The notes under the pieces are model-generated. The model made no database searches. It was not told the DNA's origin and saw nothing but the letters and a program-made list of their open reading frames with translations. This document shows, piece after piece, positions 22,387 through 51,559 of a stretch of DNA of 64,000 nt. Made by a program: the position numbers and the translations under genes. Origin of the DNA: Alphaproteobacteria bacterium. Its GTDB lineage: Bacteria; Pseudomonadota; Alphaproteobacteria; Micropepsales; Micropepsaceae. The DNA lies in NCBI GenBank assembly GCA_017307355.1, contig JAFKFG010000022.1:1-64000 (forward strand), written 5' to 3'. Every line of letters begins with the position of its first letter. The stretch's first letter is position 1.

Positions 22387-22668
22387 TTACCGAGGCTCTG
22401 AGAAACTGAGCCAGATGCCGTTGCGCCAATAGCCACGGCCTTCATGGTCGTGCCAGCGATAGCGGCGGTGATCCCGGTCGCGCCAGCGCCAATTGTCGTC
22501 ATGCACGACCACGCCGAAACGGGGACGATAATTGTAGCGCTCGCTGGTGTGCCAGCAATCGCCCGCGCGATTGCACACAATATACGCAGAAGCCGTGGTG
22601 GCTGTGCCCGCAAGAGCCGCAACGCCGATGATGGCTGCCGCCGCACCCTGCAACATCAGTTTTTTCAT
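22387..22668 (-). CDS. Small secreted protein rich in Trp, His and Arg
   Basis: A 93-residue protein starting MKKLMLQGAAAAIIGVAALA with a clear signal peptide cleaved after TASA. The mature part begins YIVCNRAGDCWHT, holding two Cys that could pair in the periplasm, followed by a WRWRDRDHRRYRWHDHEGRG region full of aromatic and basic residues. GGAGA lies before the ATG at 22668; the longer open frame upstream lacks support. I recall similar YIVCN...GDCWH proteins as hypotheticals in alphaproteobacteria. Function unknown. Confidence 0.8.
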   Translation of the reverse strand: MKKLMLQGAAAAIIGVAALAGTATTASAYIVCNRAGDCWHTSERYNYRPRFGVVVHDDNWRWRDRDHRRYRWHDHEGRGYWRNGIWLSFSEPR

Positions 22669-22782
22669 GATCTTCTCTCCGGTTCTGAGGGCGTTTCTGC
22701 CGCCTCCGGGAGAGAAAACACCCGACCCCGGGCGCATGTTCCGCGGCCATTTTGTGGCAATCACTGGCCGCTGTACTGGCCG

Positions 22783-22811
22783 TTGACGGGATTTGGGAAC
22801 TAAAGTAGAAC
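22783..22811 (+). promoter_or_regulatory. lexA promoter with LexA (SOS) box
   Basis: The alphaproteobacterial SOS operator appears as GAAC-TAAAGTA-GAAC at 22797-22811 (reverse complement GTTC-N7-GTTC). A -35 TTGACG (22783-22788) and a -10 TAGAAC (22806-22811) are 17 bases apart, so the box covers the -10. LexA therefore represses its own gene. The same 15 bases recur at 49542-49556. Confidence 0.88.
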
Positions 22812-22901: not shown

Positions 22902-23639
22902 ATGCTGACCCGCAAGCAATATGAGCTTCTGCTCTTCATCCATGAGCGTATCCGCGAAACCGGCATCCCGCCCTCTTTCGACGAGATGAAGGAGGCGCTC
23001 GATCTCAAATCCAAATCCGGCATTCACCGCCTGATCACGGCGTTGGAGGAACGCGGATTCCTGCGCCGTATGGAAAAGCGTGCCCGGGCTTTGGAAGTGA
23101 TGCGGCTTCCCGACAACATGGCGGAAACCGCCCGCCCCGCCACCACCCGCAGCCAGGCACAGCGCATCATGCCGTCGGTGCGTCACGGGCGCACCGAAAC
23201 CCGCGCACCGGATCCGCGCAACAGCGCGCCGCGCCGCGCCATGGGCGACAGCGAACATGCCGTCAATGTTCCTCTGGTGGGCCGCATTGCCGCCGGCACG
23301 CCGATCGAAGCCTTGCAGAATCGCATTGCCGACGTGCCGGTTCCCGGCGGCATGATCGGACGCGGCGATCATTACGCCTTGGAAGTGACCGGCGATTCCA
23401 TGATCAATGCCGGCATTCTGGATGGCGACACGGTGATCATCCAGGAAGCCGACAGCGCCAATACCGGTGAAATCGTGGTGGCGCTGGTGGATGACAATGA
23501 AGCGACCTTGAAGCGCCTGCGCCGGCGCGGCGATTCCATCGCGCTGGAAGCGGCCAATCCCGCCTATGAAACGCGCCTTTATGGCGCCGACCGGGTCAAG
23601 GTACAGGGCAAGCTGGTGGGACTGATCCGCCGCTACTGA
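22902..23639 (+). CDS. lexA: LexA SOS repressor
   Basis: A 245-residue repressor and self-cleaving protease. The N-terminal winged helix is [20 protein letters not shown] ... [20 protein letters not shown]. The cleavage site is Ala131-Gly132 in GRIAAGTP, and the catalytic pair is Ser166 in GDSM and Lys204 in TLKRL. The linker of about 50 residues is long, as in alphaproteobacteria. The promoter carries its own operator. The last 7 bases overlap the convergent end of comEC. Confidence 0.97.
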
Positions 23640-44722: not shown

Positions 44723-45901
44723 ATGAAAAGCCCGATCCGCCCTCTTCTGCGTCAGCTTCACCCCAATGGCCTGGTCGAGGTCGTCCATCTGGGCCTGCAC
44801 CGGCCCGGACTGATCCCGCTCTGGTTCGGCGAGACCGACCTCACCACCCCGGAATTCATTCGCAAGGCCGCCATCGCGGCCCTGAACGAGGGCAAGACAT
44901 TCTATACCTGGGCGCGGGGCATTCCCGAGTTCAGGCAGGCCATCGCCGCCTTCCATCAGCGGACTTTGGGCGTCGCCATCGATATGGAGCGGGTGACCGT
45001 GCCGGGCGCGGCGATGCTGGCGATCGTCACGGCGCTGCAATGCGTGGTCGAGACCGGCGACAATGTGGTGATCGTGGCGCCGGTCTGGCCCAACATCTAT
45101 CAGGCGGCGCAGGTTGCCGGCGCCGACGTGCGCCTGGTGCGGCTGGACGAGGATTGGAACAGCGGCCGCTGGCATCTCGACCTCGACAAGCTGTTCGCGC
45201 GGTGCGACGCGCGGACCAAGGCGATCTTCATCTCCTCGCCCAGCAATCCCACCGGCTGGACGGCCAGCCGTGCCGAACAGGAAGCGATCCTGGAATTTGC
45301 GCGCCGGCGCGGCATCGCGATCATCAGCGACGAAGTCTATGGCACGCTGATCTATGACGGCAGCACCCATGCCCCGTCCTTCCTCCAGATCGCGGACGAG
45401 AATGATCCCGTCTTCGTGATCAATTCCTTTTCCAAGCCCTGGGCGATGACGGGCTGGCGCATCGGCTGGCTCACCCATCCGCGCGATCTCAGCGATACGA
45501 TGCGCATTCTTTCTCCCGTCGCCAACACCGGCACCACCACTTTCAACCAGTATGGCGCTTTGGCCGCCCTGGGCCCGGAAGGCGATGTGTTCCGCGAAAG
45601 CTTGCGCGCGCGGTGCGAGGCGAACCGGGCGGTGGTGCAGGATTTCATTGCCCGCCAGAACCGGGTGCGCTGGATGGCGCCGCAAGGCGCTTTCTATGGC
45701 TATCTGCAATTCGACGGGATGACCGACAGCCTGGCACTGGCAAAGGATCTGGTGGTCCGCGCCAATGTCGGCACCGCCCCGGGCTCGGCTTTCAGCCTGG
45801 GCGATCCGCGCGACGATGCCTATCTGCGCATCTGTTTCGCCCGCGACGCGCAAGGGCTTGCCGAAGGGCTGAAGCGGATCGAAAGCGTCCTGACGGCCTA
45901 G
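44723..45901 (+). CDS. Pyridoxal-phosphate aminotransferase, class I/II
   Basis: A 392-residue fold-type I aminotransferase. The pattern PLWFGETDLTTPEFIRKAA, YTWARGIPEFRQAIA, SSPSNPTGW and the PLP lysine in INSFSKPWAMTGWRIGW place it with aspartate/aromatic aminotransferases of the AspC-like group. The first ATG with sense for the family is 44723. Its substrate is unresolved. The stop shares the four bases CTAG with the dnaE stop on the other strand. Confidence 0.87.
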   Translation: MKSPIRPLLRQLHPNGLVEVVHLGLHRPGLIPLWFGETDLTTPEFIRKAAIAALNEGKTFYTWARGIPEFRQAIAAFHQRTLGVAIDMERVTVPGAAMLAIVTALQCVVETGDNVVIVAPVWPNIYQAAQVAGADVRLVRLDEDWNSGRWHLDLDKLFARCDARTKAIFISSPSNPTGWTASRAEQEAILEFARRRGIAIISDEVYGTLIYDGSTHAPSFLQIADENDPVFVINSFSKPWAMTGWRIGWLTHPRDLSDTMRILSPVANTGTTTFNQYGALAALGPEGDVFRESLRARCEANRAVVQDFIARQNRVRWMAPQGAFYGYLQFDGMTDSLALAKDLVVRANVGTAPGSAFSLGDPRDDAYLRICFARDAQGLAEGLKRIESVLTA

Positions 45902-48900
45902 ACGGCCTCGACGGACAGCACGCCGGGAATGGCCGCGATATTGCTGCGCAGGACCGCGGTCACCGCGTGCCGCTTGGAAAGCGCGATCTCCACTTCCTCG
46001 CCTTCGCCGCCCGGTACCACGAAACTGACCAACCCCTTGCCGGGCTGGGTCAGCTGCGCGGCGATGGCAGAAAGTGATGCCGCGGAATCCAGTCGCACCA
46101 CCATCCCCTCGCCCGCGCTGGCCGCCGCCTGATCCAGATCGGTGATGGAAGCGGCGCGCAATTTCAGCTCGTCGCCATCCCAATCCGCGCTGGCCGAGAT
46201 CACCAGGCTTTTGCCCGCTTCCAGCAAAGGCCGGCTGGCCGCCAGCACTTCGGGGAACAACATGATCTCGAACATGCCGGTGGCATCGGAGAAAGCGACA
46301 AAGGCATACATCTGGTCGTTGCGGCCGCGCCGCTCGGACTTCTTGATCATGGTCCCGGCCAACTTGGCCTTGAAGCCCGCGCGCCGGTCTTCGATCAAAC
46401 TGGCGTAAGTCGTCACGCCCAACCGTTTCAGCGCCGAGCCATAGGCATCCAAAGGATGCCCGGACAGATAAAAGCCCATGGCGCCGAATTCCTCGCCCAG
46501 CTTTTCATGCGCGGGCCAGTCGGGAATATTGGTCAGGCGCAATTCTTCCGCCGCAGAATCGCCGCCGCCGAACAGGGACACCTGGCCGCTTTCCCGTTCG
46601 CGCGCCGCCGCATGGGCGCCGCCCAGGATGCGGTCGGAATTCTCCACCAGCTGGCGGCGGTTCTTGTTCAGTCCGTCAAAGGCTCCAGCCCGCACCAGAT
46701 TTTCAAAGGCCCGCTTGTTGACCAGCTTGGGATCCACCCGCCGGGCAAAATCGGAGATGGATTTGAATGGTCCGTTCGCGGTGCGGATTTCCACCACATG
46801 ATCCATCGCCTGGCGGCCCACGCCTTTGACGGCGGCCAGGGCATAGAACACCATCCGCGCTTCGGCATCGCAGCTGAACACCGCTTCGGATCGGTTAATG
46901 TCGGGCGGCGCGATCTTCACGCCCAGCCGCTGCGCTTCCTGGCGGAAGACATTCAGCCGGTCGGTGTTGCCGATATCCAGGGTCATCGAAGCGGCAAGGA
47001 ATTCGACCGGATAATTCGCCTTCAGATAGGCGGTCTGATAGGCGACCTGGGCATAGGCGGCAGCATGGCCTTTGTTGAAGCCATAGCCGGCGAATTTCTC
47101 CGCCTGTTCGAAAATCTGCTCGGCAACGGATTCGGCGATGCCCCGCTCGCTTGCGCCTTTGAGGAATTTCTCCCGGTGCACGATCATTTCGGCGGGGATC
47201 TTCTTGCCCATGGCGCGGCGCAAGAGATCGGCTTCGCCCAAGGTATAACCGGCCAGTTCGCGGGCGATGCGCATCACATCGTCCTGATAGGTCATCACGC
47301 CATAGGATTCGCGCAGGATGGGTTCCAGCAGCGGGTGCAGATATTCCACCGCCTCCTTGCCGTTCTTGCAGGCGATGTATTTGGGGATGGAGTCCATCGG
47401 CCCCGGACGATAGAGCGCCACCAGCGCCACCAGATCGTTGATATGGTCCGGCTTCATCTTGCGCATCAGGTCGCGCATGCCCGCGCCTTCGAGCTGGAAG
47501 ACGCCGATACTGTCGCCCCGCGCCAGCATTTCGAAGGTGCCCGGATCGTCGAAATCGATGGTCTGGGTGTTGAGCGCGATGCCCCGGTTCTTCAAAAGCT
47601 CTTCCGCCTTGGCGATGACGGTGAGCGTCTTGAGACCGAGAAAGTCGAACTTCACCAGCCCGGCCTTTTCCGCGTCCTCATAGTCGAATTGCGTCACCGG
47701 CATTTCGGAACGCGGATCGCGATAGAGCGGCAGGATTTCGTCCAGCGGCCTATCGCCGATCACCACGCCGGCCGGATGGGTGGAGGCGTGGCGGTACAGG
47801 CCTTCGATGCGGCCGGTGATTTCGAACAGGCGCTGGGCGATGGGTTCGGATTCGGCGATCGCCTGAAGCCGGGGTTCGCTGTCTATCGCATCCTTCAGCG
47901 ACATGGGCTTGCCCGGCGGATTGGGGATCAGCTTGGCGATGCGGTCCACCAGTCCCAGCGGCATCTGCAGCACCCGGCCCGCGTCGCGCACCGCCGCACG
48001 GGCCTGCAGCGATCCCAGCGCGATGATATGGGCGACGCGGTCGGTGCCATATTTGTTGCGCACATAGCGCACCACTTCGTCACGCCGCTCCTGGCAGAAA
48101 TCGATGTCGAAGTCCGGCATCGAGATACGTTCGGGATTGAGGAAGCGCTCAAAGAAAAGGCCAAAGCGCAACGGATCCAGGTTGGTGATGTCCAGCGCCC
48201 AGGCCACCAGCGAGGAGGCGCCCGAACCGCGCACGCCCACCGGAATGCCTTGCGCCTTGGTCCAGCGCATGAAGTCCGAAACGATCAGGAAGTAGCCGGG
48301 AAATCCCATGCGATTGATGATGGAAAGCTCATAGGCCAGCCGTTCGTGATAGACCTGTGGTTCAGCCCGCAAGGTGTTGACGGCCATGCGCCGCGCCAAG
48401 CCCTCTTCCGCTTGCGCCTTCAATTCGTCTTCAGGGCTGCGTCCGGATTCCGGCACGAACACCGGCAGGATGGGCTTGCGCTTGACCGGGCGATAGGCGC
48501 AGCGGCGCGCGATCTCGATAGTGTTGTCCAAGGCTTCGGGCAGGTCCGCGAACTGCGCCGCCATTTCGGCGGGCGTCTTGAAGCGATGCTCGCGGGTCAG
48601 CCGGCGCCGATCGTCCTGGGAGACGAAACTTCCATCCGCGATGCACAGAAGCGCGTCATGCGCTTCGTACATCGCCGAGGCGCCGAAATGCACATCGTTG
48701 GTGGCGACCAGCGGCAACTGCTTGGCATAGGCCAGATCGATCAGGCCCGGCTCGGTGGCCCGCTCCTCCGGCAGGTTATGGCGCTGCAACTCCACATAAA
48801 GGCGCCCGTCGAAAATCTCGGCCAGGCGGTCCAGAAGCGCCGCTGCGGCATCGCCCTGTCCTTCCAGCAGCAGGACATTGACCGGCCCGCCCGGTCCCCC

Positions 48901-49329
48901 CGTCAGGGCGATCAGGCCTTCGGCATGCGCGGCCAGCGCCGGCAGCTTCACATGCGGCCAGTCGCCCGGTTCGGCTTCCAGATAGGCGGCACTGAGAAGC
49001 TTGGTGAGGTTGCGATAGCCGACATCGCTCTGAACCAGCAGGGGCAGGTTCGGCGGTTTCTTGCGACTGCCCTGCTGGGTCACCGGCGAGGGCGTCAGCT
49101 CCACCGACAGCAGCGCGCCGACAATGGGCTGAACCCCCGCCTTGGCCACCGTGTCGGCGATCTCATAAACGCCGAAGAGATTGTTGCTGTCGGTGACGGC
49201 GACGGCCGGCATGCCGCTTTCGGTCGCCAGCATGGCCAGCTCTTTCGGCCGCATCGCCCCTTCCAGAAGCGAATAGGCGCTTTTCACCCGCAGATGGACG
49301 AAGGAAGCCATTTTGCGTGGAGGAGCCAT
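45898..49329 (-). CDS. dnaE: DNA polymerase III alpha subunit
   Basis: The replicative polymerase, 1143 residues. Order: PHP domain (about 1-280, FVHLRVKSAYSLLEGA), polymerase core with catalytic Asp pair in MPDFDIDFCQERRDEV and a third in FDFLGLKTLTVI, tandem HhH region (RVDPKLVNKRAFENLVRAGA), OB fold (GTMIKKSERRGRNDQMYAFV) and C-terminal tau-binding part. ATG at 49329 or 49311 are both possible, neither with a strong ribosome site. Upstream, 83 bases away, is the LexA-controlled small gene. Confidence 0.97.
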   Translation of the reverse strand: MAPPRKMASFVHLRVKSAYSLLEGAMRPKELAMLATESGMPAVAVTDSNNLFGVYEIADTVAKAGVQPIVGALLSVELTPSPVTQQGSRKKPPNLPLLVQSDVGYRNLTKLLSAAYLEAEPGDWPHVKLPALAAHAEGLIALTGGPGGPVNVLLLEGQGDAAAALLDRLAEIFDGRLYVELQRHNLPEERATEPGLIDLAYAKQLPLVATNDVHFGASAMYEAHDALLCIADGSFVSQDDRRRLTREHRFKTPAEMAAQFADLPEALDNTIEIARRCAYRPVKRKPILPVFVPESGRSPEDELKAQAEEGLARRMAVNTLRAEPQVYHERLAYELSIINRMGFPGYFLIVSDFMRWTKAQGIPVGVRGSGASSLVAWALDITNLDPLRFGLFFERFLNPERISMPDFDIDFCQERRDEVVRYVRNKYGTDRVAHIIALGSLQARAAVRDAGRVLQMPLGLVDRIAKLIPNPPGKPMSLKDAIDSEPRLQAIAESEPIAQRLFEITGRIEGLYRHASTHPAGVVIGDRPLDEILPLYRDPRSEMPVTQFDYEDAEKAGLVKFDFLGLKTLTVIAKAEELLKNRGIALNTQTIDFDDPGTFEMLARGDSIGVFQLEGAGMRDLMRKMKPDHINDLVALVALYRPGPMDSIPKYIACKNGKEAVEYLHPLLEPILRESYGVMTYQDDVMRIARELAGYTLGEADLLRRAMGKKIPAEMIVHREKFLKGASERGIAESVAEQIFEQAEKFAGYGFNKGHAAAYAQVAYQTAYLKANYPVEFLAASMTLDIGNTDRLNVFRQEAQRLGVKIAPPDINRSEAVFSCDAEARMVFYALAAVKGVGRQAMDHVVEIRTANGPFKSISDFARRVDPKLVNKRAFENLVRAGAFDGLNKNRRQLVENSDRILGGAHAAARERESGQVSLFGGGDSAAEELRLTNIPDWPAHEKLGEEFGAMGFYLSGHPLDAYGSALKRLGVTTYASLIEDRRAGFKAKLAGTMIKKSERRGRNDQMYAFVAFSDATGMFEIMLFPEVLAASRPLLEAGKSLVISASADWDGDELKLRAASITDLDQAAASAGEGMVVRLDSAASLSAIAAQLTQPGKGLVSFVVPGGEGEEVEIALSKRHAVTAVLRSNIAAIPGVLSVEAV

Positions 49330-49412
49330 AGCGCGCGTGGGTACCCGAAGAATCCGCCCGACTATCGCCCGTCAGGCCCCCTCTGTGGGGACCGTCGGCG
49401 GGGTATCCACAG

Positions 49413-49514
49413 TCAGAAGATCGCCATCACCGCCTGGGCGCTGCCGGCCAGCACAAAGGACGACACCATGAAAACGACCAGACCCGCGCCCGCCGCCGCA
49501 TCCTTGATCCACAT
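49413..49514 (-). CDS. 33-residue membrane peptide under LexA control (SidA-like candidate)
   Basis: A short gene missed by size cut-offs. It encodes 33 residues: MWIKDAAAG, then a hydrophobic run GLVVFMVSSFVLAG (about 11-24) and a small-residue tail ending MAIF, i.e. one membrane helix with a short charged N-terminus. A strong AGGAGGG lies 8 bases before the ATG, and a LexA box identical to that of lexA lies 28 bases upstream of the ATG. SOS-induced single-helix peptides that block division are known (Caulobacter SidA, 29 residues). Homology to SidA is not shown here; function is inferred from size, topology and operator. Confidence 0.75.
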   Translation of the reverse strand: MWIKDAAAGAGLVVFMVSSFVLAGSAQAVMAIF

Positions 49515-49541
49515 GACGCCGTCCCTCCTGTTTGGAGGTTT

Positions 49542-49571
49542 GTTCTACTTTAGTTCTCATCAGAACACAAG
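49542..49571 (-). promoter_or_regulatory. LexA (SOS) box and promoter of the 33-residue peptide gene
   Basis: GTTC-TACTTTA-GTTC at 49542-49556 is the reverse complement of the 15-base box at lexA (22797-22811), identical in every base including the seven spacer positions. On the minus strand it again contains the -10 TAGAAC, with TTGTGT 17 bases before it as a weak -35. A further GTTC-tgatga-GAAC palindrome lies just upstream. Confidence 0.85.
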
Positions 49572-49596
49572 AACAAAACGGGATCAAAAAAGCGGG

Positions 49597-50298
49597 CTAT
49601 CCGGCTGGCTGCATCACACCGGCCCCATCGACCAGCACGCCCTGCTGCAGGACCAGGGAACGGTCCATCCGGGCGGCCAGCTGGAAATTGTGCGTGGCGA
49701 TCAAGGCGGCCAGTCCTTCGGCGCGGGTGATCGCCAGCAGAGCCTCGAACACCCCTCCGGAGGTGCGGGGATCCAGATTGCCTGTGGGCTCGTCAGCCAG
49801 AAGGATGCGGGGCTTGTTGGCCAGGGCCCGGGCGATGGCGACGCGCTGCTGTTCGCCGCCCGACAATTGCGCCGGCCGGTGCGTCAACCGCTCGCCCAAT
49901 CCCAGCGCGGTCAGCAACCGCCTGGCTTCGACCGCCGCTTCGCCGCGGCTTTTGCCGGCGATCATCTGCGGCAGCACCACATTTTCCAGCGCATCGAATT
50001 CCGGCAGAAGGTGATGCGCCTGATAGACGAAACCGATCATGTCGCGGCGGATGCGGGTACGCTCCTGCTCGGGCAGCCGGGAAGCCGCCACGCCGCCGAT
50101 ATAGATCTCGCCTCCCGAAGGCGCTTCCAGAAGACCCGCCATATGGAGCAGCGAGGATTTCCCCACCCCGGATTGGCCCACCAGGGCCACGATCTCGCCC
50201 GCCTGAAGCGACATGTTGAGGTCGCGAAAGACCTCCAACTGACCCTCGCCTTCCTTGTAACGGCGCGAGACATTTTCCAGCCGCAGCATCTCAGCCAT
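49597..50298 (-). CDS. lolD: Lipoprotein-releasing ABC ATPase LolD
   Basis: ATPase of the LolCDE complex that extracts lipoproteins from the inner membrane. 233 residues with Walker [11 protein letters not shown]-loop [19 protein letters not shown] (the LolD-specific His-rich stretch), signature [15 protein letters not shown] and Walker [13 protein letters not shown]. It overlaps lolC by 8 bases; an ATG at 50289 is an alternative. A T-rich stretch follows the stop. Confidence 0.96.
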
Positions 50299-51559
50299 AG
50301 CGCAGGGCCTCGACCGGATCGAGTTTGGCGGCGCGCCAGGACGGATAAAGTGTCGCCAGCAAGGTCAGGGTCAGCGCCATCACCACCACGGCGGTGACTT
50401 CGCCCGCATCCAGCTCGGCCGGCATCTTGGAGAGGAAATAGATGGTGGGATCGAACAGAGTGGTGCCGGTCAGCCGCGACAGGCCCTGGCGGATGCTTTC
50501 GATATTGGCGCAGAAAACCACGCCGATGATGAAGCCCAACAGCGTGCCGACCACGCCGATGCTGGCGCCCGCGATCAGGAAAACCCGCATCACCGCGCCC
50601 CGGCTGGCGCCCATGGTGCGCAGCACGGCGATGTCGCCCGATTTGTCCTTCACCAGCATGATCAGGCCCGACACGATGTTCAGTGCCGCCACCAGGATGA
50701 TCAAGGTCAGGATCAGAAACATCACATTGCGTTCCACCTGCAGCGCTTCGAAGAAACTGGAATTGGTTTCCTGCCAGGGCACCAGGCGATTGTCGCGGCC
50801 CGTGACCTGCTGCAGTGCCGGCAGCATCGCCAGATCATTGTCGGGATCGGTGACCATCACTTCGATGCTGCTGACCCCGCCTTCGGAATTGAAGAAAAGC
50901 TGCGCTTCGCCAAGCGGCATGAAAATGAAGCTGGTGTCGTATTGCGTCATGCCCACCTTGAAGGTGCCCGAGACTTTGTAGGTCTTGATGCGCGGCGTGG
51001 TGCCGAACGGGGTGACGTTGCCCTTGGGCGCGATCAGCGTGATGGAGCCGCCCACGCGAATGCCCATCTTGCGGGCCAGGCCCGCGCCGATGATCACCTC
51101 GTCGCCGCTGTCGAAGCCGGCCAGCGCATCCTGCGACAGGGTCGAGGACACCAGGGTGAGACTTTTGAGATCGGCCGGATGAAGGCCGCGCACCAGGACG
51201 CCGGAATTGACCCCGTTCTGGCTGGCCATCACCTGGCCATCCACCACCGGCGCCGCCCTTGTCACGCCGGGCACGGCCCGCAACTTTTGGGTCAGGGCGT
51301 CGAAATCGCGCAGCGGGCCGCCATCGGCCAGCACCGTGACATGGCCGTTCAGGCCCAGAATGCTTTTGAGCAGCTCATGCCGGAAGCCGTTCATCACCGA
51401 CATCACGATGATTAGGGTGGCCACCCCCAGCGCGATCCCGATCAGGGAGAAACCTGATATGACGGAGATGAAGCTTTCTTGACGCTTGGCCCTGAGATAA
51501 CGCAGCGCCAGCATCCATTCGAAGGGCGCGAAAGCCCCGACTTTTCTTGATTCGGCCAT
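50291..51559 (-). CDS. lolC: Lipoprotein-releasing system permease LolC/LolE family
   Basis: A 422-residue membrane subunit with the MacB/FtsX topology: one N-terminal helix, a large periplasmic domain (about 65-270) and three C-terminal helices. Signatures: [31 protein letters not shown] and [20 protein letters not shown], ending PVEALRYG. Only one permease gene is present beside lolD, so a homodimer (LolF-like arrangement) is likely, as in other alphaproteobacteria. Confidence 0.94.

Follow-up and report, generated by a model that had tools for sequence, protein, structure and literature searches.

A candidate divergent SidA-type cell-division inhibitor encoded between lolD and dnaE in an alphaproteobacterial genome

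Sequence analysis of the window (the whole 64,000-nucleotide stretch of Micropepsaceae DNA considered here) revealed, between lolD and dnaE, a small gene for a 33-residue single-helix membrane peptide, which probably (probability about 0.73) encodes a divergent SidA-type cell-division inhibitor, repressed by LexA, induced by DNA damage and holding FtsW/FtsI/FtsN inactive. According to the proposed mechanism, LexA bound to a box over the -10 region would keep the gene off; upon DNA damage, activation of RecA would lead to self-cleavage of LexA and the peptide would be made. Its single helix would then insert in the inner membrane, with the short W-x-K-D N-terminal end predicted to be cytoplasmic, and would keep FtsW/FtsI/FtsN, the synthase of the septal cell wall, inactive, so that division would wait for repair to be completed.

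These observations bear on how most bacteria halt division upon DNA damage, since the range of SulA is limited and sequence searches rarely pick up membrane inhibitors of small size. With a constant location to look at, between lolD and dnaE and behind a LexA box, candidates could be listed across Alphaproteobacteria, and the resulting set of natural variants could be used to map what a helix of about 30 residues needs for FtsW/FtsI/FtsN shutdown.

The peptide gene and its conservation

The gene lies on the minus strand at 49413..49514; its translation, MWIKDAAAGAGLVVFMVSSFVLAGSAQAVMAIF, comprises 33 residues and a stop, from an ATG to a TGA, and a Shine-Dalgarno sequence, AGGAGGG (49523..49529, minus strand), is found 8 nt ahead of the ATG. 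Both the frame and the Shine-Dalgarno had been proposed in a first-pass annotation and were confirmed, the frame at 49514-49413; the single hydrophobic helix that it described is borne out by a top 19-residue Kyte-Doolittle mean of 2.0, starting from residue 6, and by the AlphaFold2 model, a single helix covering residues 2-32 with a pLDDT of 96. This model says little except "helix", and the membrane location of the peptide is predicted; the hydrophobic helix begins immediately after the W-I-K-D sequence. Searched with the window peptide, Pfam and NCBIfam returned no matching model; very probably, gene-finding models miss here a divergent SidA. A hairpin that covers the Shine-Dalgarno of the window gene shows no conservation (mean z -0.3).

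Lack of conservation in relatives had been named in the first-pass annotation among the outcomes that would speak against the candidate; the peptide proved instead to be conserved in the genus. A single-sequence search detected it in 35 of 37 genus genomes at E < 0.001 and a profile search found it encoded in 62 of 69; of the seven genomes lacking the peptide, five were checked, and in all five the start of dnaE was also without a match, so that in these cases the locus is absent from the assembly. All the 30 genus loci that were read present an ATG start and a purine-rich Shine-Dalgarno. In the genus alignment W2 and D5 are invariant, while K4, A6, A8, G9, L12, F15, L22 and A26 are nearly so, and the median pairwise dN/dS is about 0.36 for the genus pairs with a usable synonymous distance, a noisy estimate on 28 codons. 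The peptide frame is a real gene, as shown by its presence in these 62 genomes, the invariant W2 and D5, the dN/dS value and the occurrence of box and ATG at 30 of 30 loci.

Two other open frames were observed. A second, longer peptide of 46-50 residues, which ends in the same WLKD... helix and has no exact LexA box, is encoded in two genomes of the genus (L234:821-971 and L235:668-806, oriented to the dnaE strand), where the SidA-like gene follows about 1.3-1.4 kb downstream; this second peptide is possibly a paralogue outside SOS control. Moreover, dnaE, the peptide gene and lolD are overlapped on the opposite strand by a 1313-codon open frame of the window (46456-50397, plus strand); this frame is probably a by-product of high GC content and no gene.

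The LexA box and the promoter region

A LexA box, GAACTAAAGTAGAAC, is located at 49542..49556 (minus strand) and begins 42 nt upstream of the peptide ATG. Its 15 bases had been described in the first-pass annotation as identical, spacer included, to the box at lexA, and this was confirmed: an exact copy is present at 22797..22811 (plus strand), upstream of a gene (22902..23639, plus strand) whose product contains the Pfam LexA_DNA_bind and Peptidase_S24 domains. This copy, about 90 nt before lexA, is the single other exact occurrence of the 15-mer in the 3.49-Mb genome; for recA, a box is found about 200 nt upstream of the matched domain. The generic GTTC-N7-GTTC pattern gives 59 matches in the genome versus 58 for a reversed control pattern, which corresponds to chance level; thus, the motif alone is no proof and independent support for the box is required. 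The box rises above chance because the 15-mer is identical to the lexA box and because it is conserved at the genus loci, where 30 of the 30 inspected carry a GAAC-N7-GAAC box no more than 110 nt ahead of the ATG. The chance frequency of the generic pattern would favour the view that a fortuitous ORF stands beside a fortuitous box, a reading of negligible probability, which the retention of the peptide in 62 of 69 genomes and of box and start codon at every locus inspected has already refuted.

A putative promoter overlaps the box: the proposed -10, TAGAAC (49542..49547, minus strand), coincides in part with the downstream LexA half-site, and the proposed -35 is TTGTGT (49565..49570, minus strand). 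The pattern TTGNNN-17 nt-TAGAAC recurs in the closest relatives, while more distant genus members have TTGACA and a weaker -10; this conserved pattern would place the LexA box over or within the promoter. The assignment is tentative, since a strict sigma-70 consensus scan at the locus does not detect the proposed promoter. LexA control of the peptide gene is likewise predicted, from the presence of the box.

Other features of these upstream regions can be described. The block TTTTGTTCTTG (49568-49578, minus strand), which shortly precedes the LexA box, is kept in nearly all genus loci; it holds an extra GTTC half-site and extends into the proposed -35. Two or three tandem LexA-type boxes precede the peptide gene in several relatives (L027, L034, L037 and L038). 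At lexA, the box at 22797-22811 may also serve a gene of opposite orientation (22387-22671, minus strand; ATG around 22671), whose small product, MKKLMLQGAAAAIIGVAALAGTATTASAYIVC..., looks secreted; SOS control could extend to this gene.

The position of the box raises the question of whether it serves dnaE, as an SOS-induced replicase, the ORF being the translated leader of dnaE. The peptide gene is indeed on the same strand, 83 nt before dnaE, and no convincing terminator separates them; this explanation is nevertheless very improbable, considering that conservation acts at the amino-acid level, with the invariant W and D, that the ORF has its own ribosome-binding site and that a profile link connects it to SidA, a protein-level effector. 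Furthermore, three loci (L029, L032 and L033) keep peptide and box though the conserved start of dnaE lies more than 500 nt further downstream. A SidA-type peptide with its own LexA-controlled gene is the preferred reading.

The lolD-dnaE slot and the relationship with SidA

In the window, the order on the minus strand is lolC, lolD, peptide gene, dnaE. The upstream neighbour, lolD (49597..50298, minus strand), codes for an ABC transporter ATPase (Pfam ABC_tran, 2e-32) and is preceded by a lolC-type permease gene (50291..51559, minus strand; MacB_PCD and FtsX domains); downstream, dnaE, for the DNA polymerase III alpha subunit, occupies 45898..49329 (minus strand), leaving the 83-nt gap to the peptide gene.

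SidA of Caulobacter is a 29-residue inner-membrane protein, controlled by LexA, which binds FtsW and blocks a late division step (PMC4211646). The first-pass annotation suggested that its gene might also sit near dnaE, and this is correct. In Caulobacter vibrioides DSM 9893 (L266) the genes follow in the order lolC, lolD, a nucleoside hydrolase gene on the reverse strand (Pfam IU_nuc_hydro, 1e-78), a 29-residue ORF and dnaE; the ORF lies behind a LexA box, directly upstream of dnaE, and is recognized by NCBIfam as "cell division inhibitor SidA" with 72 bits (cut-off 35). This order agrees with the published identities of the locus, i.e. CCNA_02004 for sidA (PMC10769358), CCNA_02005 for an inosine-uridine nucleoside hydrolase (PMC3667746) and CC1926 for dnaE (PMC1839093), so that the 29-residue ORF is sidA and adjoins dnaE. 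Caulobacteraceae genomes had first been located with a Caulobacter DnaE query; the L266 record and the NCBIfam match are independent of the exactness of that query. A text search of the literature for the SidA sequence returned unrelated matches.

The gap was compared across Alphaproteobacteria, as the first-pass annotation had suggested. The regions upstream of dnaE were surveyed in a sample of the class (137 loci), using strict criteria, i.e. an exact box, an RBS-like sequence and a correctly placed membrane ORF of 24-50 residues: 18 of 137 loci contained them, whereas the opposite strand and the reversed sequence of these loci yielded none (0/137 each). This prevalence depends on the thresholds for exact box and hydropathy. 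About a dozen alphaproteobacterial families are represented once cases failing one threshold are included. Within the window's own family, divergent versions of the peptide with the box present are found in four genera (g277, g278, g279 and g281); in another genus, g26, no LexA box or small membrane ORF was found in the lolD-dnaE gap (L343, L344, L346, L347 and L353), which reads as a natural loss of the peptide.

Not every candidate from other families could be retained. In three families (f111, f55 and f50) the slot contains a small membrane ORF together with a LexA box, yet homology is without sequence support, and a class-wide search with the genus profile gave mostly noise outside the window's family, with the exception of family f116, whose matches turned out to sit upstream of dnaE.

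Comparison of the 33 residues with SidA gave a divided answer. Direct profile comparison between the window genus and Caulobacteraceae SidA is not significant, and the NCBIfam model for SidA (NF033228, cut-off 35 bits) matches 20 of 20 Caulobacteraceae members tested but neither the window peptide nor any of 30 genus members, at E<=10; among 373 sampled genomes of the class it exceeds the cut-off in a single one, a member of the Caulobacteraceae. Both, however, match an alignment of same-slot peptides from other families: profile-profile E-values are 1.5e-8 over 33 columns for the window genus and 6e-7 over 23 columns for Caulobacteraceae SidA, in the same register, while controls with reversed intermediates are not significant (probabilities of 0.3 and 2.4 percent). 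A leave-out test was also run against 895 hydrophobic decoys. Here a profile built from the other families only gave a median of 10.1 bits for the window genus and 13.1 for SidA, the best decoy reaching 7.7; when Caulobacteraceae were added to the training set, the window genus median dropped to 2.7 bits, within the decoy range. We interpret these scores as those of a single ancient family in which the Caulobacter branch has diverged; synteny and the LexA box carry much of the weight of the homology argument.

Since NF033228 gives no match and direct similarity is not significant, the window peptide is termed a divergent SidA-type peptide and not a model-defined SidA; it is a probable ortholog of SidA. 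Thus, the analogy with SidA proposed in the first-pass annotation, that of a functional counterpart, is supported and, through the shared slot and the profile link, may be raised to probable orthology. A broader proposal, which we consider somewhat favoured, is that SidA did not arise in Caulobacter but represents there an ancient checkpoint peptide of Alphaproteobacteria, retained in the lolD-dnaE slot, whose ancestral N-terminus read W-x-K/E/Q-D/E; with about 30 codons and a sequence too variable for family models, this peptide would have been overlooked.

Proposed function and comparison with known systems

Three FtsW residues known from Caulobacter suppressors were compared in the window genome: A246 is kept, while A31 is changed to G and F145 to L. 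In Caulobacter, the change of A31 to K is a strong suppressor of SidA overproduction. Since A31 and F145 are changed, the contact may differ or another divisome target may be used; with one of three residues kept, the comparison allows no clear inference. The peptide could accordingly be a SidA ortholog that has drifted to another target, such as FtsN, FtsI or another inner-membrane protein, and acts as a checkpoint peptide without binding FtsW. Beside the two FtsW changes, this is consistent with the strong sequence differences among families past the N-terminal motif and with the precedent of DidA, the second Caulobacter inhibitor, which acts through FtsN (PMC4211646). We regard such a drift as unlikely: nothing positive points to another target, and for SidA-type inhibitors in several phyla FtsW binding has been either demonstrated or predicted (PMC13396833). 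A SidA-type action on FtsW/FtsI/FtsN remains the main proposal.

TisB and DinQ of Escherichia coli are likewise small membrane peptides induced in the SOS response. Both have the membrane as their own target and are under antisense-RNA control. DinQ (PMC3567139) provides an E. coli precedent for a peptide that would depolarise or permeabilise the membrane, in persistence or as a toxin, with no divisome binding. The window peptide resembles this type in being small and hydrophobic, with a single helix and a LexA box that predicts LexA control; its hydrophobicity is uniform, with a low moment (0.10) and a net charge of 0, unlike an amphipathic pore-former. An Rfam search of 49250-49750 detected no member of a known regulatory RNA family, though an undescribed RNA may be encoded there; locus and profile link are common to the peptide and SidA. 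A membrane-depolarising role is thus quite improbable, and both this and the dnaE-leader explanation are less likely than the SidA-type reading.

A division inhibitor of the SidA type finds several functional parallels. YneA of Bacillus subtilis, SosA of Staphylococcus aureus and ChiZ of Mycobacterium tuberculosis are also DNA-damage-induced, late-acting small membrane division inhibitors. They exceed the window peptide in size, have LysM or extended extracellular parts and are not known to be related to it in sequence or locus. For all three, action on FtsW has been shown or predicted (PMC13396833). DidA is, as proposed for the window peptide, a small membrane division inhibitor and is DNA-damage-induced; its control depends on DriD, not on LexA, and it binds FtsN (PMC4211646).

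The same-slot peptides of other families, exemplified by MADWIKDTAALLVLGAVMWSGFALTAAAQAVH from family f116, share with the window peptide position, LexA box, size and a W-[IVF]-[KEQ]-[DE]-h-h-[AG] start; the C-terminal half of the helix varies, and in some families the N-terminus is extended. Of the 14 that were tested, none is covered by an NCBIfam model. Finally, SidA itself differs from the window peptide in length (29 versus 33 residues), in the N-terminus (R-x-A-R-E versus W-x-K-D) and in the C-terminal part, which is unrelated at the sequence level; in Caulobacter a nucleoside hydrolase gene is inserted between lolD and sidA, whereas in the window lolD adjoins the peptide gene. The two have in common the slot between lolC-lolD and dnaE, the upstream LexA box, a size of about 30 residues and one hydrophobic helix, preceded in both by a few N-terminal residues that include charged ones (R-E in SidA, K-D in the window peptide).
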